Below the pieces are notes generated by a model. That model did not search any database and was not told the DNA's origin. It saw only the letters and a program-made list of their open reading frames with translations. Shown here in pieces: positions 9,613 through 51,755 of a stretch of 53,682 nt of DNA. The stretch is from Persephonella marina EX-H1 (lineage in GTDB: Bacteria > Aquificota > Aquificia > Aquificales > Hydrogenothermaceae). Within the stretch, counting starts at the first letter, position 1. Every line of letters begins with the position of its first letter. The translations under genes and the position numbers were made by a program. The stretch lies in contig NC_012439.1 in NCBI RefSeq assembly GCF_000021565.1, positions 1 to 53,682 of the forward strand. The letters run 5' to 3'.

Positions 9613-9824
9613 TTTTTACTTGCATTTTCTTTTTTAAATCTTTTAAAAACATTTTTATAAATATCTGGGACTTCTGTTGTTATAGTCCCATCTGGAAGCT
9701 CAAAATAAAATTTCCCATTTTTACAATAAACATTTGGAATGCCTTTTTTTAAACTTTCTTGCTGTGCTTTTCTTACGGCTCTGTTTCCTATTGAAATTAT
9801 GTCTATTAATAAGGATTTATCCAT
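9609..9824 (-). CDS. Small partner (candidate antitoxin) of the zeta-like kinase
   Basis: This 71-aa protein has a helical start with RKAQQESLKKGIPNVY followed by KFYFELPDGTIT. This resembles small proteins commonly found beside zeta-like kinases, in which the G-IPNVY and ELPDG stretches recur. It starts within the end of the kinase gene (8-base overlap) and overlaps the 371-aa gene by 4 bases. The toxin-first order is the reverse of the classic epsilon-zeta arrangement. Calling it an antitoxin is inference. Confidence 0.7.
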   Translation of the reverse strand: MDKSLLIDIISIGNRAVRKAQQESLKKGIPNVYCKNGKFYFELPDGTITTEVPDIYKNVFKRFKKENASKK

Positions 9825-10356
9825 TTTCTATATCCTCCAAGAAAATTTCATAAAGCTCGGGTATGCATATCTTTTCATCGTCAGCAACTAATATAAAATC
9901 GTCTTTACCATTAAATATTAAACTCCATTCATGAACTAAGTCTTTTATTTCCATAAACATTTTCTTGCTTCTGTAATATCTTCTTTTAATATCTTCTTCT
10001 GGAACAAAATGACCACCCTGGGCGGTTCTATGTTCCACTCTTAAAACATTTTCTTCAGGATTGGATAAAAAGATATAAATAAGCTTAACCTTAAATCCTT
10101 TTTGTTTTGCTTCTTTAATTAATTGTTTTATGTATTTTCCTGAAAGTGTAGTTTCTATCACGAAAGAACTATTTTGATTTAATTTTTTCTTAACAGCTTT
10201 TAAAAATTTCCTACCAGCTTCTATATTGCTTTTGCAATGTTTTGCTATTTCATCAGTATTTAAAAATTCAAGGTTATTTTCCTTGCAGAAAACTTTAGCA
10301 AAAGTGGTTTTACCACTCCCGTTAGCTCCAGCTACTATGAATAGTGTTTTTTCCAT
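9817..10356 (-). CDS. Zeta-toxin-like P-loop kinase
   Basis: Walker A is GANGSGKT (residues 10-17), an acidic site lies in NTDE (Asp35), and IETTLSGK is near 67-74. The family signature GGHFVPEEDIKRRYYRS is in the last third. Zeta kinases phosphorylate UDP-N-acetylglucosamine or other small substrates and poison cells unless neutralised. At 179 aa this one is short, of the single-domain AAA_33/zeta-like type. It is first in its operon, with AGAGG before the ATG and a candidate promoter just upstream. A role in plasmid addiction is likely but not shown. Confidence 0.85.
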   Translation of the reverse strand: MEKTLFIVAGANGSGKTTFAKVFCKENNLEFLNTDEIAKHCKSNIEAGRKFLKAVKKKLNQNSSFVIETTLSGKYIKQLIKEAKQKGFKVKLIYIFLSNPEENVLRVEHRTAQGGHFVPEEDIKRRYYRSKKMFMEIKDLVHEWSLIFNGKDDFILVADDEKICIPELYEIFLEDIENG

Positions 10357-17640: not shown

Positions 17641-17656
17641 TTGCAATTAATTGCAA
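17641..17656. promoter_or_regulatory. Palindromic operator-like site 2
   Basis: TTGCAATTAATTGCAA lies between the divergent traW block and the 17722 gene, six bases before a TTGACA -35 box. It matches the core at 881-900 exactly, so both directions may be controlled. Confidence 0.6.
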
Positions 17657-17662
17657 ATATTG

Positions 17663-17710
17663 TTGACAAAATCAGGAAAAAGTATATTAATAGTATTACA
17701 TTGCATTACA
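17663..17710 (+). promoter_or_regulatory. Promoter and direct-repeat operator of the ribbon-helix-helix gene
   Basis: TTGACA (17663-17668) lies 16 bases from TATTAA (17685-17690). Downstream ATTACATTGCATTACA (17695-17710) holds two ATTACA boxes ten bases apart, placed between the -10 box and the AGGAG ribosome site. The same hexamer, inverted, occurs in the promoters at 11231 and 47653. This looks like autoregulation by the RelB/DinJ-type product. Confidence 0.6.
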
Positions 17711-17721
17711 AGGAGTGTGAA

Positions 17722-17928
17722 ATGGCGAAGAAAAAAGCAGTAAAAAAAGCAGTTGCAGGTCTTGGTATGGAGAAGGAAACATCTATTTCTTTAAGAATTG
17801 ACAAACAAACAAAGGAAGAATTTAAAAGAACCGTAGAAGAAATGGGGTTGGATATGACCTCTGCTATAAAACTGTATATAAAGAAGGTAATAAGGGAAAA
17901 AAGAATACCTTTTGAGGTGGAAGGATGA
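17722..17928 (+). CDS. RelB/DinJ-like ribbon-helix-helix regulator, 68 aa
   Basis: A basic Ala/Lys leader is followed by the ribbon strand TSISLRIDKQTKEEF and two helices ending in TSAIKLYIKKVIREKRIPFEV. That last stretch is characteristic of RelB/DinJ antitoxins. The ATG at 17722 follows AAGGAG. No RelE/YafQ-type toxin follows; the next gene, overlapping by 4 bases, is an exported protein. I therefore see it as a stand-alone transcriptional regulator, probably binding ATTACA boxes. In-frame codons upstream to 17641 have no ribosome site. Confidence 0.85.
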   Translation: MAKKKAVKKAVAGLGMEKETSISLRIDKQTKEEFKRTVEEMGLDMTSAIKLYIKKVIREKRIPFEVEG

Positions 17929-26099: not shown

Positions 26100-26471
26100 T
26101 CAAAAACTTGCAATTAATTGCATGTTTATCCAGTGATACAACTCCCTATATGCCAACTTTCTCAAAAACACTACTTCCCTCTCGCTTTTATTCCCAACTC
26201 TTATTCCGTATCTATCTTTGCCTCTAAAAAACACTATGTATCCTTCAGGTGTTTCTATTACCTCATTATTTTCCCCGATAAGACCAAAGAAAGCTCCCTC
26301 CAGTAGTGCCAAAAATCTCTCTACAGCTGTAGTGGTCGCTTTTTTACCGTTCACATTTACGGTTAGCTTCGGAAGTGTTTCATTACCTATAATTTCTTTC
26401 TCAAGTTTTAATTCTATAAATGCTGTAATATTTCCAGCTTTATCAATTATTTCCAATCTTTTCAATGCCAT
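26100..26471 (-). CDS. Unknown beta-rich protein, 123 aa
   Basis: Alternating strands (ITAFIELKLEK, TVNVNGKK) lead into a helix (TAVERFLALLEGAFFG), followed by a second set of strands (GYIVFFRGKDRYGIRVG) and a final helix. The architecture resembles the unknown genes at 113 and 36738. It lies between the HD protein and traF and overlaps the HD gene by 29 bases. Its final codons contain palindrome site 3. Confidence 0.7.
   Translation of the reverse strand: MALKRLEIIDKAGNITAFIELKLEKEIIGNETLPKLTVNVNGKKATTTAVERFLALLEGAFFGLIGENNEVIETPEGYIVFFRGKDRYGIRVGNKSEREVVFLRKLAYRELYHWINMQLIASF
26108..26123. promoter_or_regulatory. Palindromic operator-like site 3
   Basis: TTGCAATTAATTGCAT differs from the full core at the last base only. 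It lies in the end of the 123-aa gene, about 55 bases upstream of traF, so it may control traF-traH-traG separately from the upstream transfer genes. Because it is coding here, chance is a little more likely than at the intergenic sites. Confidence 0.45.
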
Positions 26472-27828
26472 AGCTCACTTCTCCCCATCTTTCTAATAAG
26501 TCTTGTGGTATGCAATCTTTTTTAAGGAAATAAACACTCTTAAAGGTTTTTTCTCCAACTTTCACATCCCACAAACCTAAATCACTATCAGGATTAAGCT
26601 CTATGCAGTTTGATAACTTTTTCGGAATGATATACGCAATAGTGTGAACTCCCTTTCTGTCAGGTTCTTCTGATAAAGGTATTGCTGGTTCTTTATCTTT
26701 AATAGTTCTGACTAAACTTCTATTAAAAGCATGTGCTAAAACTACCACATAAGGAAAGTCTGACCTGTGCCAGCCATCATATTTCCCAGTATCAAAAATA
26801 TCGTTGATGTTTAGCTTTCTGATAGTTTCTTCAAAGAATTTATCCAGAGGATAATCAGCTCCTTTCAGTTCCTCCAGTGTAGCTTCCATATCTTTTTGTT
26901 TTACCAGCTCCCATATATCCTTATCTTTAGGTATCCTGATACCAAACTTTTCAGACAGAAATGTCATTGTTGACTTATTAACTACTTCCTGATTTAAACC
27001 TGCACTTGTCCACTTGCAGGTCTTTTTTTTCTTTTTTGGTTTTTCATTCTCATCATCCAAAGGTGAAGGCACATAAAAAGGTTCTTTGCATTCATACCTG
27101 TAAAGTCTTATTTTTCCTATATCGTGCAGTAGCCCTGCCAAAAATCCTTCTTTTTGCTTTTCCTCTGGTGCTTGTTGTTTTATCAACTCATTTACTACCT
27201 TTTTGGCAACTGAATAAGAATGTTCAAACAATCCAAACCTTTCTGGATTATGGTGCAAAATAGAAGCTGGAACAGGATTGGCAAGCAAAATAGATAGGAC
27301 TTTGTCTATGTCTTTATCTTTAAATGGATTGTAAAAATATTTGGCTTTTAATAAAACAAACAGCTCCTCTATGCTTTTCCTGTTTCGGTAAACAAATAAC
27401 ACTAAAACTAAAACCAAGCTAAAAACTATTAGCCAGAAAGATTTATGGACTACTGCATAAAACACCCCAAAAGCAAAAACATACTTAGCTAAAAAAGCCT
27501 GTAATTTTGCATCCAAAGAAACTTTTATATTTTTCCCACCATTTTTTACCAAATCAACGATAATATTGGCTTTTTCCTCTGTTGAAAGTTTCTGATTTGA
27601 AGCCTTGTATGCATTATAAGCCATCATGTATCCTGTATCATAAAACTTTTGCCCTTCAGGTAGAACTTTCATTAAAGAGTTCCTCAGGTTATACATATCC
27701 AGAAGGGAGCTTCTGTCCACAGCTGAAGTAAGCCAGTCAAGAATAACCGCAAACAGAATTACAACTATTAAGAAGCCTAAAAAGAAGTTTTCACTCTCTT
27801 TACTACTTTGCTTCTTTGCCCCAAACAT
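26443..27828 (-). CDS. Membrane-anchored HD-domain protein, candidate MOBH-like relaxase
   Basis: Membrane segments occur near 17-36 and 118-145. A helical part follows, then ILHHNPERFGLFEHSYSVA and AGLLHDIGKI (about 190-237), an HD metal-binding site. The His-His... HS...HDxGK layout is like the TraI_2/MOBH proteins found with F-type systems in SXT/R391 and Rts1. No MOBF or MOBP relaxase is visible elsewhere, so this is the best relaxase candidate. Against it, the membrane anchor is unusual and I see no separate nicking tyrosine motif. It could instead be an HD phosphohydrolase. Confidence 0.7.
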   Translation of the reverse strand: MFGAKKQSSKESENFFLGFLIVVILFAVILDWLTSAVDRSSLLDMYNLRNSLMKVLPEGQKFYDTGYMMAYNAYKASNQKLSTEEKANIIVDLVKNGGKNIKVSLDAKLQAFLAKYVFAFGVFYAVVHKSFWLIVFSLVLVLVLFVYRNRKSIEELFVLLKAKYFYNPFKDKDIDKVLSILLANPVPASILHHNPERFGLFEHSYSVAKKVVNELIKQQAPEEKQKEGFLAGLLHDIGKIRLYRYECKEPFYVPSPLDDENEKPKKKKKTCKWTSAGLNQEVVNKSTMTFLSEKFGIRIPKDKDIWELVKQKDMEATLEELKGADYPLDKFFEETIRKLNINDIFDTGKYDGWHRSDFPYVVVLAHAFNRSLVRTIKDKEPAIPLSEEPDRKGVHTIAYIIPKKLSNCIELNPDSDLGLWDVKVGEKTFKSVYFLKKDCIPQDLLERWGEVSYGIEKIGNN

Positions 27829-36641: not shown

Positions 36642-36659
36642 CTTGCAATTGATTGCAAG
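36642..36659. promoter_or_regulatory. Palindromic operator-like site 4
   Basis: CTTGCAATTGATTGCAAG, the palindrome with one central change, lies between the divergent traA block and the 36738 gene. The 165-base gap should hold promoters both ways. TTGATA and TATAAAAT-like boxes are visible but not well spaced, so I do not assign them. Confidence 0.55.
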
Positions 36660-37430: not shown

Positions 37431-37441
37431 ATATGAAGGGA

Positions 37442-37478
37442 AGGGACAGGGAAGCAACAAGGCTTTCCACTTGTCCCT
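37442..37478. terminator. Hairpin between convergent genes
   Basis: AGGGACA (37442-37448) pairs with TGTCCCT (37472-37478), and an inner GGAAGC/GCTTTCC stem lies inside. It sits between the 230-aa gene and the convergent Cas4-like gene, so it may terminate both. There is no long T-run, so a processing or regulatory role is also possible. The flank CCCTATACT recurs at the hairpin near 40048. Confidence 0.5.
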
Positions 37479-37512
37479 ATACTTTAAACTGCTTTTATAT
37501 CAAGAAACTTTT

Positions 37513-38217
37513 TTACATATACTCCAACTCATCTAAAACTTTTTCAGATTTTTCTTTCTCACATAAGTGAGAATAAAAGCAGTATTTACACTTCCAATTT
37601 TCACTACCGCTTTGGATTTCATTGTAAATATCAACAACTTCCTTATTACCTTTCAAAATACTCACAGCTTCATCCAGAACTTTTAACATCTCTTGCTCAA
37701 CTTCTGGGTCATAATCAACATCAAACTCTACAATCTCTCCAGATGATTTCAGTAGATATACTATCTTTGCTTTCTCCAAGCCAGTCATTCTCATATAAAA
37801 ATGAGCCTGTAAAATATGATGGCTTGAAGGTAGATAGTCCTTTGTTGTCTTTCCATTTCTGTAAACCTTATCTGCTATAGTCTTAAACTCTACTATGAAC
37901 TTTTCCCCTGTTTCTGGGTCAGTCATAATTCCATCAATATGACCTACAATCTGATAATCTCCATGTTTTCTAACAAATTCCTTTTCGGCTTCCTCTACAG
38001 GTAAGAAGCCCTGAAGCATCTCGTGCAAATTACTACCTATTGCTAAAATAGGCAGTTTTTCTTCATCAACTTGGGGTTCTTCTCCTAAAAATGACCATAC
38101 AGCTTTAACAGGACACTGAGAAAGTTCTGAAACTCTTAACATTCCTTGATACTTGTTTTGTTCTTCCTTTGACTTTTCCAATAATGCCTTCTTTAACAAT
38201 TCTTTTACACTGACCAT
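37513..38217 (-). CDS. Cas4-like PD-(D/E)XK nuclease with 4Fe-4S cluster
   Basis: All Cas4/RecB-type motifs are present in this 234-aa protein: His65, Asp95 in GHIDGI, Glu110-x-Lys112 in EFKT, and the QAHFY motif at 137-141. Four Cys (35, 210, 213, 219) should bind an Fe-S cluster. Such nucleases make single-stranded ends. No cas1, cas2 or repeats are near, so this is a plasmid exonuclease, not an adaptation gene. It is last in the operon with a candidate annealing protein, suggesting a two-part recombination system. Its leader has the shared GTCAAAGGAGG element. Confidence 0.88.
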   Translation of the reverse strand: MVSVKELLKKALLEKSKEEQNKYQGMLRVSELSQCPVKAVWSFLGEEPQVDEEKLPILAIGSNLHEMLQGFLPVEEAEKEFVRKHGDYQIVGHIDGIMTDPETGEKFIVEFKTIADKVYRNGKTTKDYLPSSHHILQAHFYMRMTGLEKAKIVYLLKSSGEIVEFDVDYDPEVEQEMLKVLDEAVSILKGNKEVVDIYNEIQSGSENWKCKYCFYSHLCEKEKSEKVLDELEYM

Positions 38218-38252: not shown

Positions 38253-38357
38253 TTAGTTAAGAGAAATGGCTAACAAGCCTTTCTTTGTCTGTAAGAACAT
38301 ATAAGGTCCAACTTGAAAGGCTAAACAAATAAATCTTTGATACTCTTTTCTGCTCAT
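38253..38357 (-). CDS. Micro-gene, 34 aa
   Basis: The peptide begins MSRKEYQRFICLAF and ends KGLLAISLN. It has the operon's full leader, GTCAAAGGAGG then GTCATG, which makes translation likely despite its size. It is basic with a hydrophobic middle. It lies between the 132-aa gene and the Cas4-like gene. Function unknown. Confidence 0.65.
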   Translation of the reverse strand: MSRKEYQRFICLAFQVGPYMFLQTKKGLLAISLN

Positions 38358-38373
38358 GACATTCCTCCTTTGA

Positions 38374-38772
38374 CTATATTATTTGAAGTTCTCTTAATAA
38401 AAACTTGGTTGCCTTTGACAATTCAAATTCAACATCAATACCCTTTAACTCATCTAAGACATAATCTCTTTTCCAACTTGGCAAATAAAACTGCGTATCC
38501 CTGTAATTAGCCAGAACCTCAACCTCTTGTAGGCTCTCCAGCTCTACTTCAGCTTCTTCTTTGATAAACTCGTAAACTATTCCGACTGGGTCAACTTTCC
38601 AGCCTTGATTTTCTTTGATTTGGAAAGCTATCTCTTTAACCACTCTGTTGTAATCAAGACCAGCTTCATTGATAATCTCCTCGGCTCTTTGAAAATCCCA
38701 ACAAATGCCTCCAGTGTTCAGCTCTAACAATACATCTTCCATTAAAGATGTGCTTTCTAACACTACTCCCAT
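38374..38772 (-). CDS. Unknown acidic protein, 132 aa
   Basis: This helical, Glu-rich soluble protein contains CWDFQRAEEIINEAGLDY and a late FELSKATKFLLREL. It has no recognised domain. It carries the shared leader and is spaced 4 bases from the 109-aa gene. Its place between ArdC-like and Cas4-like genes suggests a role on entering DNA, but this is inference. Confidence 0.75.
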   Translation of the reverse strand: MGVVLESTSLMEDVLLELNTGGICWDFQRAEEIINEAGLDYNRVVKEIAFQIKENQGWKVDPVGIVYEFIKEEAEVELESLQEVEVLANYRDTQFYLPSWKRDYVLDELKGIDVEFELSKATKFLLRELQII

Positions 38773-38776
38773 GACC

Positions 38777-39106
38777 TTAAACCTCCTTTGACAATTCTCT
38801 TAAAAATTCTTCTAAATCTTCATCTTCTTTTTGATAAGCTGTTATCAGCTTTTCCATAACTTCTTTGTTTTGTATCTTTGACATAACAGCATTCCTATAC
38901 TCTGGGTAAAAATACAGAACATAACACAATGCCCATTCAAGCCATTTAAGGAACTTACCATCAGCTTTGTAATTCAGCACTAATTTATCTTGCCAAGTAG
39001 TATCATCTTCCTTGTTCCAATACCTCAACTTAAGAGCAATAACACCTTTCCTTATCAAGTTTGCATCCCTTTCTACTCTCCATAAATGCTGATAATTCTT
39101 TTGCAT
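38777..39106 (-). CDS. Unknown protein, 109 aa
   Basis: This protein has basic and aromatic N-terminal sequence (MQKNYQHLWRVERDANLI), a middle KFLKWLEWALCYVLYFYPEY and an acidic helical tail. I moved the start from 39130 to the ATG at 39106, because the upstream 24 bases are the AAGGAAGGAGG leader and GTC seen before other genes in the operon. Function unknown. Confidence 0.75.
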   Translation of the reverse strand: MQKNYQHLWRVERDANLIRKGVIALKLRYWNKEDDTTWQDKLVLNYKADGKFLKWLEWALCYVLYFYPEYRNAVMSKIQNKEVMEKLITAYQKEDEDLEEFLRELSKEV

Positions 39107-39147: not shown

Positions 39148-39993
39148 CTATGCTACTTTTTGATTAAGATTGGCTCTACTGATGATATACTCTGATGCTT
39201 TTTCAGCTTGATTAAAGGCTTTTATTAACTTTGCTCCAGATACTTCCTGAAGCCATCCTTTGATGTAAATAACTGAATTTTTAAACTTATCTTCTGGAAT
39301 GTTTATATACCTTGCAGTTAGCAATAAGCTCCCTATTTCCGCAATAGCTTCTTCCATCTGTTTGTCAACTTTTCTATTCAACCTTTTCTCATGTTTTGTA
39401 GAATGGACTGCTTCATGTGCAAATGTCATTACATAGTCAATGTCATCTTTTATGTGCGGATACATTCCGATGACATCTTTATCTTGGCTATAAAATGAAG
39501 CTTCAAATTGTGCAGTTTCAATAATCCTTATTCCTTCTATCTGACAATAGTTCCTTAATGTAGATAACAATTCTTTGGTTCTGTTTGTTTCCTTTACAGG
39601 TTCATAAACAGGATTTCCATTCTCATCAACTACATCCAAAATTGGAAATAAGTAATAATACTTGAGTATTGGAACATCTTTGGTAATTATTATCTCATTA
39701 CCTTCTTCATCCTTTTCTATGACCTCTATCTGCTGTGGCTTGAAGAATACAGCTATACTTGCTTTACTTCCCTTTTTCAATCTCCAGCCTTTTTTCTTAT
39801 AAAGTTCCTTCAACTGATTGTTTGTCAGCCAGTAAGGACTTCCAGATAGAAGCAACCTGTTAATTCCTCTATACTCGTGCTTTGATATGAAATTCTTTGG
39901 ATAAAGGTAAGGTGTTTCCCAGTCTTGACTTTCAATCTTATCAAATAATTCTAACACTTTGGTTTTAACTATCTCTGACACTTTCTTACCCAT
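39148..39993 (-). CDS. ardC: ArdC-like antirestriction protein with zinc-protease motif
   Basis: The N-terminal single-strand-binding domain (about 1-130) shows EYRGINRLLL, YWLTNNQLKEL and KKGSKASIAVFF. The C-terminal metallopeptidase-like domain has HEAVH near 191-195 followed by HEKRLNR. ArdC proteins coat incoming single strands and protect conjugating plasmids from restriction. At 281 aa it fits the family. The gene starts with GGAGGAG and the GTC before ATG shared in this operon. Several relatives carry it in the leading region, the first DNA to enter a recipient. Confidence 0.9.
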   Translation of the reverse strand: MGKKVSEIVKTKVLELFDKIESQDWETPYLYPKNFISKHEYRGINRLLLSGSPYWLTNNQLKELYKKKGWRLKKGSKASIAVFFKPQQIEVIEKDEEGNEIIITKDVPILKYYYLFPILDVVDENGNPVYEPVKETNRTKELLSTLRNYCQIEGIRIIETAQFEASFYSQDKDVIGMYPHIKDDIDYVMTFAHEAVHSTKHEKRLNRKVDKQMEEAIAEIGSLLLTARYINIPEDKFKNSVIYIKGWLQEVSGAKLIKAFNQAEKASEYIISRANLNQKVA

Positions 39994-40083: not shown

Positions 40084-40929
40084 TTATTTAGAAGAAGCAA
40101 CTGTTTTTGTATTATTGGATTTTTTGAAAACCTTATCTAACAACTGGCTTGCTTGTGCCATAGTCAACTTATCCAAGTCAACCTTATCCTTAATCTTTCC
40201 TTCGTCTATCAGCTTTTGGATAAGGTCTTTCTGCTTTTGAGTAGCTGGCTTATCTCCATTTGACTTTTTGCCATTACCATTTGAAACATGACCCATTTTT
40301 TCCATGAGAGGAACAAGGACTTTGTTTATAAAGTCCTCGCCGACGACCTCTTCAAGCAACCTTTTAGTTGCTCTGGTCTCGGCAGTTCCTAAAGCATCAT
40401 GATAAATACGGATTTCTTTATCCCTGTTGCCTCTAATATCATCTTCTTCTGCATTACCTAATGCTTGAAACTCTAACATTGCTCCATTAGGCAACTGGAT
40501 TTCACAGATAGCTTTAACTATGATTGGATTGACTGACAATACATCCTTCTTAATTCTAACTGTTCCACCAAGACCTGCGATACTTCTACTTAGCTGGTTA
40601 AGCATCGCAAGTGCAACGGGTCTGGTTATTTCCAGACGACCGTTGATTTTTACACAGGCATTTACATTTTCCTTAAGCACACTTGATAATCTCTCTCTGA
40701 GAGTATCAAAGCTAAACTCATTTGCAGGTGCAATACTCACCTCTTCTTTTACAGCTGGAGCTGGTTTTGTTTCAGGTTCTTCACCTAAAACTTCTTCAGC
40801 TGTAGTTTCTACAAGTTCAACTTCTGGTTCTAAAACCTCTTGATTTTTTTCTTCCATGACTTTTTCCTCCTTCTTTGACTTTTTAGTTTCTTTGATTTCT
40901 TCGTTTTTCTTTGACTTTCTTCTTGCCAT
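40084..40929 (-). CDS. Candidate single-strand annealing or ssDNA-binding recombination protein
   Basis: A Lys/Glu-rich disordered tail (about 1-70) leads to a core with RPVALAMLNQL, IVKAICEIQLPNGAMLEF and HDALGTAETRATKRLLEEVVG. The Ala-x-x-Arg-Ala-x-x-Arg type helix is typical of phage and plasmid annealing proteins (Rad52/ERF-like). The tail TQKQKDLIQKLIDEG and LTMAQASQLLDKV is also common in phage ssDNA-related proteins. Together with the Cas4-like nuclease it would make an exonuclease-annealase pair. The exact family is not settled. Confidence 0.65.
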   Translation of the reverse strand: MARRKSKKNEEIKETKKSKKEEKVMEEKNQEVLEPEVELVETTAEEVLGEEPETKPAPAVKEEVSIAPANEFSFDTLRERLSSVLKENVNACVKINGRLEITRPVALAMLNQLSRSIAGLGGTVRIKKDVLSVNPIIVKAICEIQLPNGAMLEFQALGNAEEDDIRGNRDKEIRIYHDALGTAETRATKRLLEEVVGEDFINKVLVPLMEKMGHVSNGNGKKSNGDKPATQKQKDLIQKLIDEGKIKDKVDLDKLTMAQASQLLDKVFKKSNNTKTVASSK

Positions 40930-40947: not shown

Positions 40948-41088
40948 TTAGTTGTCAAAAATTTTTTCTAATTGTTCAAACCTTTCCTGCCGTATGTTTA
41001 AATCCTCTTTAAAGTTTTCAACGGCAAGGAAGATTAGATAGAAAAAAACCAAGATTGACAAAATCATAAGAACTACATACTTCCACAT
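40948..41088 (-). CDS. Micro-gene, 46-aa membrane peptide
   Basis: One membrane span at the start (MWKYVVLMILSILVFFY...) is followed by a charged helical tail with RQERFEQLEKIF. CAAAGGAGG precedes GTCATG, like its neighbours. The 44-aa gene just upstream has the same layout and a similar tail (YQEKRIEQVLSK), so the two may be duplicates. Confidence 0.65.
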   Translation of the reverse strand: MWKYVVLMILSILVFFYLIFLAVENFKEDLNIRQERFEQLEKIFDN

Positions 41089-41111
41089 GACATTCCTCCT
41101 TTGGCTTTGAT

Positions 41112-41246
41112 TTACTTTGACAATACCTGCTCAATTCTTTTTTCCTGATAATCTTTCAAATCATTGGCATAGTCCATAACAGCTGAAAACAGAAGATAAA
41201 CTATTACACCTGTGGTAATAGCTACAAATGACAATGCTTTTAACAT
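41112..41246 (-). CDS. Micro-gene, 44-aa membrane peptide
   Basis: The membrane span (about 5-24) is followed by a charged helix. It has the full leader GTCAAAGGAGG and GTCATG. It is paired with the 46-aa peptide, suggesting a two-part membrane complex. No family is recognised; size and topology are compatible with holin-like, toxin-like or entry-exclusion peptides. Confidence 0.65.
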   Translation of the reverse strand: MLKALSFVAITTGVIVYLLFSAVMDYANDLKDYQEKRIEQVLSK

Positions 41247-41282: not shown

Positions 41283-41594
41283 TTAAAAAGGAATGACATT
41301 TGTGTCATAAGGATATCCATGTTTTACAAGCTCATAATTAAGCTTTTGCTCAAGGATTTGAATTTCAGACTTTAACATTGATTTGAATGAATAAGACAAA
41401 AATTGGCTTTGTTGAAGTTCTTTGAGGGTTTCAATGGTTTGAAAAATTTTTTTAGGAACTTCAGGAAGATTATCCACAGAAATGTAATATGACTTATTTC
41501 CTGAAGCATCCTCCAAAACTTCTAACTCTGGGAAATATGGGTGATGATAATGTTTGTATTGACTTTGATGGTTTTGATTTGACTTTGATACCAT
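41283..41594 (-). CDS. Unknown protein, 103 aa, first gene of the ArdC operon
   Basis: This protein is rich in Gln, His, Tyr and Ser at the start (NQNHQSQYKHYHHPYF), then helical with KKIFQTIETLKELQQS. I use the ATG at 41594, which carries the shared leader, and not 41657, whose extra codons would cover the leader and a hairpin. It has no recognised domain. As the first gene it would be expressed earliest after entry if this is a leading-region operon. Confidence 0.72.
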   Translation of the reverse strand: MVSKSNQNHQSQYKHYHHPYFPELEVLEDASGNKSYYISVDNLPEVPKKIFQTIETLKELQQSQFLSYSFKSMLKSEIQILEQKLNYELVKHGYPYDTNVIPF

Positions 41595-41620
41595 GACACT
41601 GCCTCCTTTGACTGGTTTAT

Positions 41621-41690
41621 CCCTGTTCAAAGAAACCCTTAAAAAAGGCAACTTCAAACAGGGACAACCAAGCCAAAGAAGGCTTTTTTA
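41621..41690. promoter_or_regulatory. Two hairpins in the leader of the ArdC operon
   Basis: CCCTGTT (41621-41627) pairs with AACAGGG (41657-41663). Just beyond, AAGCC-AAAGAA-GGCTT (41670-41685) is followed by five Ts on the plus strand, a terminator shape. On the operon's own strand these would fold in the mRNA leader ahead of the first gene. They could control the operon, or stop transcription entering from the other side. Confidence 0.45.
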
Positions 41691-41694
41691 GGGG

Positions 41695-42111
41695 GGAGAT
41701 AGGACTGTTTTTAACAAATGACATTTAAAATTGCAATTACTTGCAATAACTCTATAGCAAACTAAATAAACATTCTTTGACAAATAACAAATGACTTAAC
41801 GAAACTGCCTATTCAATTACCAAGTAGCCAAGTCAACAATAACATTAATACAAAACCATAACCTTGTCAACCTAAAAGAAAATAAAAGCTATTAATAACC
41901 AAACCTTACAACCAGCCAAACCAAAAAACCTGAAAGAAAAAAATAACCAAACCTGACTGGCTATCAAAAACATCCGTTTTTGCTACCAAGTTAAATAACA
42001 TTTAGGTTTAAAATAACCAAACCTAAAAAACCTAAGAACCTATTCTTAAGAAAAATAACAGTTGTGATTAAATAACAACCTGAAACCTAATAACCTAACT
42101 GCATTAAAAAC
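41695..42111. other. Hairpin-rich, G-poor non-coding region
   Basis: There is no gene in these 417 bases. The plus strand is A/C-rich with very few Gs. AATAACCAAACCT occurs exactly three times (41894, 41942, 42012). Perfect hairpins are CAAAAAC-ATCC-GTTTTTG (41965-41982) and TTTAGGTTT with AAACCTAAA (42001-42027). Palindrome site 5 is at its left end. It could be oriT, a single-strand initiation or promoter site, or a second origin. Strand skew, repeats and the ArdC operon next door favour a leading-region element. Confidence 0.5.
41731..41746. promoter_or_regulatory. Palindromic operator-like site 5
   Basis: TTGCAATTACTTGCAA, one base off the perfect core, lies 137 bases upstream of the first gene of the ArdC operon and is intergenic. 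Confidence 0.5.
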
Positions 42112-45295: not shown

Positions 45296-45311
45296 TTGCA
45301 ATTAATTGCAA
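45296..45311. promoter_or_regulatory. Palindromic operator-like site 6
   Basis: A perfect TTGCAATTAATTGCAA lies just past the rep stop codon (3-4 bases) and 77 bases upstream of topB on the same strand. It may control topB independently of rep. Confidence 0.6.
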
Positions 45312-46926: not shown

Positions 46927-47024
46927 ATGTCCTGTTTATTAGAGTAAATGTCCTGTTTATTAGAGTAAATGTCCTGTTTATTAGAGTAAATGTCCTGTTT
47001 ATTAGAGTAAATGTCCTGTTTATT
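46927..47024. repeat. Origin iterons: 4 full and 1 partial 21-bp tandem repeats
   Basis: A 21-bp unit with core TGTCCTGTTTATTAGAGTA is repeated head-to-tail without spacers at 46927, 46948, 46969 and 46990. A 14-base partial copy starts at 47011. The repeats lie 61 bases upstream of the rep start. The unit is about two helix turns, so Rep molecules would bind the same face. This is the likely vegetative origin and the copy-number control site. Confidence 0.92.
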
Positions 47025-47680: not shown

Positions 47681-47717
47681 GTAATGCAAAAGCAATAAAT
47701 TGCAATAGGGGAGATGA

Positions 47718-48167
47718 ATGAAAGAAGTAGATGAGCTAAAGCAGATAATAGAAAAAAGAAACAGGGATGTTGTTGTGATAGGAAGGCTACTTAAGAAAAT
47801 CAAACAGGAAAAATCGTATAAAGAAAAATCGTTTTCAGAATTCCTGAGAAACATAGGCATAAGCACAAGGACGGCAAATTACTATATCAGAATATCGGAA
47901 CTTGAAAATGCAGATAAGCTGGTTGAGGAAATTGGATATACAAAGCTGATAGTTTTAATGGAAGCAAAAAAGCTCAACAAGGAAACTCTTGAGATGGCAA
48001 AGGAGATGAGTGTTTCACAGCTGAAAAGGAAATTGTTTGAAACTGAACAGAAGAAAGATATTTCAAAGGTAGAGAAAGACATTGAAAGACTACTTAAGAA
48101 GTATCCAGTGGACGATTTTAAGAAGGCTCTTGTAAATGTAATAAAGAAACTTAAAGAGGAGGAATGA
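47718..48167 (+). CDS. Helix-turn-helix regulator, 149 aa
   Basis: Residues 36-60 (FSEFLRNIGISTRTANYYIRI) look like a helix-turn-helix. The next part contains IGYTKLIVLMEAKKLNKETL and a charged C-terminal helix. The layout is like plasmid and phage DUF3102/ParB-type HTH proteins. As the first gene of a run with an operator-bearing promoter, it is a candidate for the protein that binds the TTGCAATTAATTGCAA sites. GGGGAG precedes the ATG. Confidence 0.75.
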   Translation: MKEVDELKQIIEKRNRDVVVIGRLLKKIKQEKSYKEKSFSEFLRNIGISTRTANYYIRISELENADKLVEEIGYTKLIVLMEAKKLNKETLEMAKEMSVSQLKRKLFETEQKKDISKVEKDIERLLKKYPVDDFKKALVNVIKKLKEEE

Positions 48168-51339: not shown

Positions 51340-51755
51340 TTTGTGATTTTCCCTTTCTCCTTCCACTCTTTTTTTTGTTTAAGTTCTATTACTTTAATAA
51401 TTTATCATTTTAACATTTTGTTAATTTATTATTTTAATAGTTTAATAAAACATTAAAATAATATTTTGTTGTTCTGGTAATTTATCAATTTATCATCTCA
51501 ATAAAATATTAAATTGTTATTTTATTACTACAACAATTTAGTAGATTTTATAATAATAGAAAAATCTACAACACCACCACTAAATCAGTGTCCATAAAAT
51601 TGCAATTAATTGCAGTCTTTTGATTGTTTGTGATTGCATCTTGATTATTAAATTGTTATTTTATTAAAGTAATATTTTGATATTTTATCAATTTATTATT
51701 TTATTATTCTGATATTTTTACGAAAAGGAAAATATAAAAGAAAAGGAGGAATGAC
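51340..51755. repeat. AT-rich repeat region, candidate partition centromere (parC)
   Basis: These 416 non-coding bases precede the actin-type partition gene. ATTAAATTGTTATTTTATTA occurs twice exactly (51508 and 51647). TTTATCAATTTAT occurs at 51481 and again near 51686, and TAATATTTTG twice. Several variants of TAATTTATCATTTTAA lie in the first 150 bases. Centromeres of ParM/ParR systems are such repeat arrays just upstream of parM, bound by ParR. It also holds the promoter and palindrome site 7. A secondary origin is possible. Confidence 0.65.
51600..51615. promoter_or_regulatory. Palindromic operator-like site 7
   Basis: TTGCAATTAATTGCAG, missing only the last base of the core, lies between the two exact 20-bp repeats and 140 bases upstream of the partition gene. 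Confidence 0.5.

Follow-up and report, generated by a model that had tools for sequence, protein, structure and literature searches.

A putative control region with a proposed plasmid-wide operator, a predicted leader hairpin and a candidate transfer origin upstream of the ArdC operon of a Persephonella marina plasmid

What does the largest non-coding gap of a conjugative plasmid do when it stands directly in front of genes for antirestriction and DNA repair? Little has been settled about how conjugative plasmids beyond enterobacteria and bacilli switch on their establishment genes for a short time, and deep-branching thermophiles are uncharted in this respect. The window analysed here, 53,682 nucleotides from Persephonella marina EX-H1, is a complete circular F-type conjugative plasmid of an Aquificota genome. 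The first and last 711 bases of the contig (1-711 and 52972-53682) match perfectly, with 0 mismatches, so that the plasmid closes into a circle of 52,971 bp; the redundancy of the ends is probably an assembly artefact. Together with one other contig of 1,930,284 bp it makes up a genome of 1.98 Mb. The plasmid encodes the transfer proteins TraE, TraB-type, TraC, TraF, TraH, TraG, TraU, TraN and TraD, a Rep3 initiator, accompanied by 21-bp iterons (46927-47024), and ParM, with an AT-rich repeat array. Two further ORFs are possible addiction genes, one for a zeta-toxin/AAA-type kinase (9817-10356) and one for a RelB-like antitoxin (17641-17928).

The operon in question runs along the minus strand from 41594 to 37513 and encodes an ArdC-like protein, a Rad52-like annealing protein, a PD-(D/E)XK nuclease and small proteins. 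Its first gene (41283-41594, 103 aa), which has no Pfam or PHROG match, begins with GTCATG, as do two small membrane-type ORFs drawn from the ORF list and the motif census (41109-41246, and 40948-41088 with 46 aa). A Rad52 fold is predicted for the annealing-type protein (40084-40857), whose model matches Rad52 in Foldseek (E 2e-4); no Pfam family reaches its cut-off, and relatives are found only in Aquificota elements. In an alignment its homologues begin at the ATG at 40857, and an in-frame GTCATG start lies upstream at 40929. GTCATG also starts the ArdC-like antirestriction protein (39148-39993; Pfam ArdcN and MPTase-PolyVal), two uncharacterized proteins of 109 aa (38777-39106) and 132 aa (38374-38772; motif census and PHROG comparison for both), and a 34-aa ORF (38253-38357; ORF list and motif census). 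The last gene, for a Cas4/RecE-like nuclease of the PD-(D/E)XK type (37513-38217; Pfam PDDEXK_1, PHROGs), starts with GTTATG. Some relatives of the Rad52-like gene lie near genes for SSB, a methyltransferase and PD-(D/E)XK proteins.

A census of ORFs and intergenic segments places the complete non-coding region at 41597-42111 (about 515 bp), the largest such gap of the plasmid. The first start codon of the operon was set at 41594-41592 of the minus strand because a much stronger GTCATG start, backed by a Shine-Dalgarno sequence (SD), lies inside the longer, TTG-started ORF. The original prediction had described a non-coding stretch directly upstream of the ArdC operon, rich in hairpins, and this placement is borne out, although its left edge at 41621 cuts the main hairpin, which starts at 41601. 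At least four hairpins had been claimed, and they are found at 41601-41683 (the leader), 41731-41746, 41965-41982, 42001-42027, 42032-42050 and 42061-42079; the suggested folding of both strands was carried out, and the DNA folds better than shuffles on both (z -4.4 for the entire region). The 13-mer AATAACCAAACCT indeed occurs three times, at 41894, 41942 and 42012, with no further copy on either strand. An exact triplet of this kind is only moderately surprising in A-rich sequence, as 24 of 2000 dinucleotide shuffles of 41817-42111 contain at least three copies of some 13-mer. The shorter words AATAAC (10 copies) and AACCT (11 copies), whose counts are reached in none of 2000 shuffles, are much more telling. 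The reported excess of C over G on the plus strand is correct (100 against 53) but not unusual, since 9% of equal-length plasmid windows are at least as skewed; the right part, 41817-42111, falls in the lowest 1.7%. As the adjacent coding DNA is more C-rich relative to G than the stretch itself, we discarded the skew as a signal. The GC content is 0.32, the search for intrinsic terminators found none, and Rfam covariance models gave no match at the gathering threshold in the window. From its sequence, the stretch reads as two parts, a left part (41597-41870) that would control the operon and a right part (41876-42111) made of repeats.

The left half, which the earlier reading had missed as an operator and leader region, has the look of an ordinary control region serving the minus-strand operon. 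At its right edge lies a promoter-like element on the minus strand, TTGACA-N17-TAATGT (41842-41870), a consensus match of 9/12 with a weak -10. Downstream of it is a palindromic operator candidate at 41731-41746, TTGCAATTACTTGCAA, which agrees in 15 of 16 positions with TTGCAATTAATTGCAA, the sole 16-bp perfect palindrome that is repeated in the plasmid. The pattern TTGCAA-N4-TTGCAA has exactly five sites in the 1.98-Mb genome, all of them on the plasmid, while the reversed-pattern control has none and shuffles of the plasmid have 0.04 on average and 1 at most. These five sites stand near the starts of transcription units: upstream of traD (883-898), between divergent genes on the RelB-like side (17641-17656), between the tra operon and ORF 36735 (36643-36658), in the present stretch (41731) and upstream of the topoisomerase operon (45296-45311). 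Matches of 15/16 occur upstream of parM (51600-51615) and where traF begins (26108); ORF 47718-48167 is preceded by an imperfect, weaker copy at 47690.

This last ORF, on the plus strand, encodes a 149-aa protein. In Foldseek its single-sequence AF2 model (pLDDT 78) comes closest to the Noc, Spo0J and KorB DNA-binding domains, although at weak E values (0.5-2). The repetition of the palindrome and these fold matches together suggest a plasmid-wide operator of the KorB kind, with the 47718-48167 protein as its candidate binder. We do not call the protein a KorB because the N-terminal CTP-binding domain is missing; a ParB-type Pfam match is likewise absent from the 149 residues. A search for a KorA or ParA partner found none, nor were relatives of the protein found elsewhere in the phylum at E 0.001.

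Between the operator and the first gene, the minus-strand RNA from 41683 to 41601 is predicted to fold into a hairpin of -52.5 kcal/mol, compared with -23.0 for shuffles (z -8.45). Its 3' arm contains the whole GUCAAAGGAGGC Shine-Dalgarno of the first gene (41602-41612, GTCAAAGGAGG), which the folding prediction pairs with P>=0.96 even at 73 C. With its SD buried in this way, the first gene should need the hairpin to be opened or cut before it can be translated.

The SD of the first gene is part of a pattern that extends through the operon. Nearly every gene starts with TCAAAG..GGAGG-n-GTCATG, the TCAAAG running into the SD at nearly all starts, and GTCATG is present at nine of the ten start sites. 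The sense strand of the operon has 16 copies of GTCAAAG and 10 of GTCATG, where shuffles of the operon reach no more than 4 and 5. Elsewhere the two words have densities of about 0.03 and 0.02 per kb (remaining plasmid) and of 0.04 and 0.07 per kb (a chromosome sample of 400 kb); GTCAAAG is enriched more than 100-fold in the operon relative to the plasmid remainder. Five copies of the combined signature exist in the genome, all on the plasmid, and a single copy each in 3 of 135 other Aquificota genomes. An extended anti-SD was considered as the source of the signature and rejected: the 16S 3' end, CCTCCTTTATAAG, explains AAAGGAGG, while the GTC elements do not pair with it. The 5' arm of the leader pairs with its own ribosome-binding site (RBS) at -24.7 kcal/mol and with the nine others of the operon at -10.7 to -22.1 kcal/mol (mostly -15 to -22, with one at -10.7), as against a median of about -10 kcal/mol, with one at -21.3, for 31 other RBSs, a difference that follows automatically from the shared SD. 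The signature points to possible operon-wide translational control.

The right part differs in character. It is an AT-rich block (41876-42111) of direct repeats and four inverted repeats: the three copies of the 13-mer on the plus strand (41894-41906, 41942-41954 and 42012-42024), of which the third lies within the loop and 3' arm of a hairpin, TTTAGGTTT-N9-AAACCTAAA (42001-42027), and the further hairpins CAAAAAC-ATCC-GTTTTTG (41965-41982), one within CTAAGAACCTATTCTTAAG (42032-42050) and GTTGT-N9-ACAAC (42061-42079). The DNA-fold z of the block is -3.65 and -4.34 for the two strands with 200 shuffles, and -4.3 and -5.3 with 60. When repeat excess was compared across 15 intergenic segments of the plasmid, it was clear for oriV (z 12.2), for this block (z 6.0) and for parC (z 5.7); the segment 50341-50450 reaches z 5.5 from just four repeated 7-mers, and 37431-37512 is marginal (z 3.0). 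Besides oriV and parC, the block is thus the only sizeable intergenic region with a clear excess of repeats.

Any conjugative plasmid needs an oriT. The block shares its plasmid with an F-type T4SS and with a MOBH-type relaxase candidate, an HD-domain protein (26443-27828, minus strand) that is membrane-anchored and placed within the tra operon. In the family of this protein HD is matched in seven of seven members and TraI_2, the MOBH relaxase family, in six of seven at E<=1 (best 9e-5), with the protein itself below the TraI_2 cut-off; H193, H203 and H235-D236 are invariant. Relatives occur in several Aquificota elements and in Halopseudomonas, where the plasmid that carries the relative is typed as non-mobilizable. 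By experiment, the oriT of IncA/C plasmids (MOBH, F-type T4SS) was mapped to an AT-rich region with inverted and 14-bp direct repeats that overlaps a promoter (PMC5587640). Repeat excess, the plasmid's need for an oriT and the IncA/C precedent together make 41876-42111, by elimination and analogy, the best oriT candidate, one to which we give slightly less than an even chance. The proposal of an oriT in this stretch is in this sense plausible, and it is better supported than before by the repeat excess, the folding of both strands, the MOBH-like HD protein and the IncA/C precedent.

The companion proposal, a promoter that works in single-stranded DNA, fared differently. A leftward promoter in a hairpin of an entering plus strand must have its -35 and -10 in the 3' arm, and plus-strand hairpins with such hexamers are no better than those of shuffles: the best hexamer pairing is 0.61, and 59 of 60 shuffles equal or exceed it. 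The polarity of entry bears on both proposals. The early genes of F-like leading regions are presumed to use the strand that enters as their template (PMC11541004), and in pLS20 the entering strand is described as the sense strand (PMC8708921). If oriT lies in the block and the ArdC operon is first in, the entering minus strand is the sense strand and cannot serve as template; 'oriT here' and 'single-strand promoter for the ArdC operon here' are therefore mutually exclusive.

Relatives give little to compare. The stretch is single copy in the genome, a PLSDB search with it gave no match, and no corresponding region stands beside the distant relatives of the annealing gene, whose upstream DNA has different short hairpins and plain strong SDs. 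The gaps before the annealing gene or its neighbours in such relatives contain short GGGAG..CTCCC-type hairpins followed by strong SDs (L022 2400-2900, L021 1560-1990, L025 7300-8200). In contig 119 of genome G002 (L019 4938-5502) the start of the annealing gene is present twice, inverted, at about 4988 and 5374, as a duplication or an assembly fold-back. A 52-kb relative element (G094 contig 131) has neither the operator nor the start signature, and it gave no information on oriT.

We favour, at a probability of roughly 0.6, the reading in which the stretch serves as 5' control region to an establishment operon of the leading type (minus strand, 41594 to 37513), equipped with a plasmid-wide operator, a candidate regulator and an SD-burying leader and adjoined by the repeat block that is the oriT candidate. 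Transcription would probably start between about 41835 and 41745. The operator at 41731-41746, whose copies also stand in promoter regions such as those of traD, the tra operon and the topoisomerase operon, would allow one plasmid regulator, possibly the KorB-fold protein, to keep the operon down in established cells. The transcript would open with the very stable hairpin that hides the first Shine-Dalgarno, and opening or cleavage of this hairpin would be needed for translation; the adjoining 41876-42111 would form a separate protein-binding element. Use of the promoter, pairing of regulator and operator, control by the hairpin and the transfer origin are what we infer from the sequence features and their statistics. 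Several points weigh against this reading. The promoter match is weak; an operator about 90 bp downstream of it must act as a roadblock, unless the true start is nearer to 41745; the KorB-type assignment comes from a single-sequence model with Foldseek E of 0.5-2; the region is lacking beside the annealing gene's distant relatives; the small segment 50341-50450 also has a repeat excess; and the case for oriT is made largely by elimination.

The stretch could instead be primarily an oriT, whose repeats and hairpins in 41876-42111 would be bound by the relaxase and accessory proteins for nicking of the minus strand, so that the ArdC operon enters first as sense strand and promoter and leader are merely neighbours of the transfer origin. 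We put this at a little under one in two. The repeat excess and two-strand fold signal, the MOBH-like relaxase, the IncA/C-like arrangement, in which a promoter adjoins an AT-rich block of direct and inverted repeats, and the establishment genes immediately beside the block all argue for it; yet an F-like orientation with the T-strand as template (PMC11541004) would move oriT to the operon's left side, at about 36.6 or 37.5 kb, where the gaps show no repeat excess except in the marginal 37431-37512. That same left-hand oriT, which excludes one in this stretch, is what a single-strand DNA promoter of the Frpo/ssi type would need in order to act from the entering plus strand before second-strand synthesis. 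Such a promoter appears highly improbable: the hairpins are many, and the antirestriction genes downstream point as required if the T-strand is plus, but plus-strand stems with promoter hexamers do not rise above shuffles, and what the strongest hairpin (41601-41683) masks is the Shine-Dalgarno and not a promoter.

The start signature raises a different pair of alternatives, of which common translational control is the most interesting and mosaic assembly the sober one. Translation of the operon might be controlled mainly by a trans-acting factor that reads the shared GUCAAAGGAGG-n-GUCAUG on almost every gene. The factor could be a protein that binds RNA, or an antisense RNA, for instance the leader's 5' arm once released, and the leader hairpin would be the master copy. 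We consider this unlikely. The enrichment of GTCAAAG and GTCATG over the plasmid remainder and shuffles, the nine GTCATG starts in ten with GTC parts beyond anti-SD pairing, and the pairing of the leader arm, stronger with the operon RBSs than the median of the 31 others, are consistent with it. However, the arm pairing is automatic from the shared SD, TCAAAG is raised within genes as well (14 of 30 copies lie away from starts) and the signature is not seen in relatives. The repeated start modules might also record mosaic assembly, with genes gained through homologous or annealing-mediated exchange, each together with one shared 5' module that has no regulatory meaning. Unrelated genes do have the module in common, the annealing protein has two consecutive copies (40929 and 40857), and the operon itself encodes an annealing protein and a nuclease, but the likeness is confined to functional letters (GTC, AAAGGAGG, GTCATG) separated by spacers that vary, as would not be expected of a block copied recently, and we regard this origin as distinctly unlikely. 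Quite unlikely too is a stronger form of translational control in which the establishment operon is one RNA regulon, GUCAAAGGAGG-n-GUCAUG on every gene being read by one plasmid factor or a leader-derived RNA and the SD-sequestering leader serving as master switch. If this were true, antirestriction and repair proteins would be translated together only in the newly entered cell.

The reading that we favour, a control region for the establishment operon, turns these 515 bp into something concrete to test, with a single operator and its candidate regulator, a leader hairpin and a candidate oriT, to which the start signature, unexplained by the ribosome's anti-SD, adds further interest. Its parts have counterparts in known systems. 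In phage lambda, an RNase III-processed hairpin lies upstream of the RBS of N. The leader described here resembles it in being a long hairpin that could limit translation and stands just ahead of an early operon's first RBS, and differs in that the SD itself would be held within the stem.

ArdC operons of the pLS20 family have inverted-repeat leaders or repressor operators immediately upstream (PMC8708921). EGeRS1 of this family, like the present region, is an inverted-repeat-rich leader that reaches the RBS of the ArdC operon, but similar copies of it stand upstream of several operons, whereas ours is single copy in its genome, and its GC content is above that of its plasmid, whereas the region here is GC-poor (PMC8708921). 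EGeRS2 is comparable in placing repressor operators at establishment promoters (PMC8708921), while the operator described here, a palindrome of unrelated sequence, is found at transfer and partition genes too, and its candidate regulator has a predicted KorB fold and is not an RHH protein. Another counterpart is KorB with its operator OB of the IncP plasmid RK2 (PMC11790492): in both cases one palindromic 16-bp operator is repeated at promoters around a conjugative plasmid. The operator sequences are unrelated, and the candidate regulator here, for which a KorB-type DNA-binding domain is weakly predicted, is a protein of 149 aa without the CTP-binding N-domain. Frpo/ssi elements of F-like leading regions (PMC11541004) are likewise non-coding, rich in hairpins and upstream of antirestriction genes, but here no stem has an embedded -35 and -10, and it is the Shine-Dalgarno that the hairpin covers. 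The oriT upstream of mobI in IncA/C plasmids (PMC5587640) matches the repeat block as an AT-rich block with multiple inverted repeats and a direct repeat of 13-14 bp, adjoining a promoter and a small first gene, with a MOBH-like relaxase encoded far away; the likeness is not one of sequence, and in our plasmid the gene downstream has no family match and the block precedes an ArdC operon.
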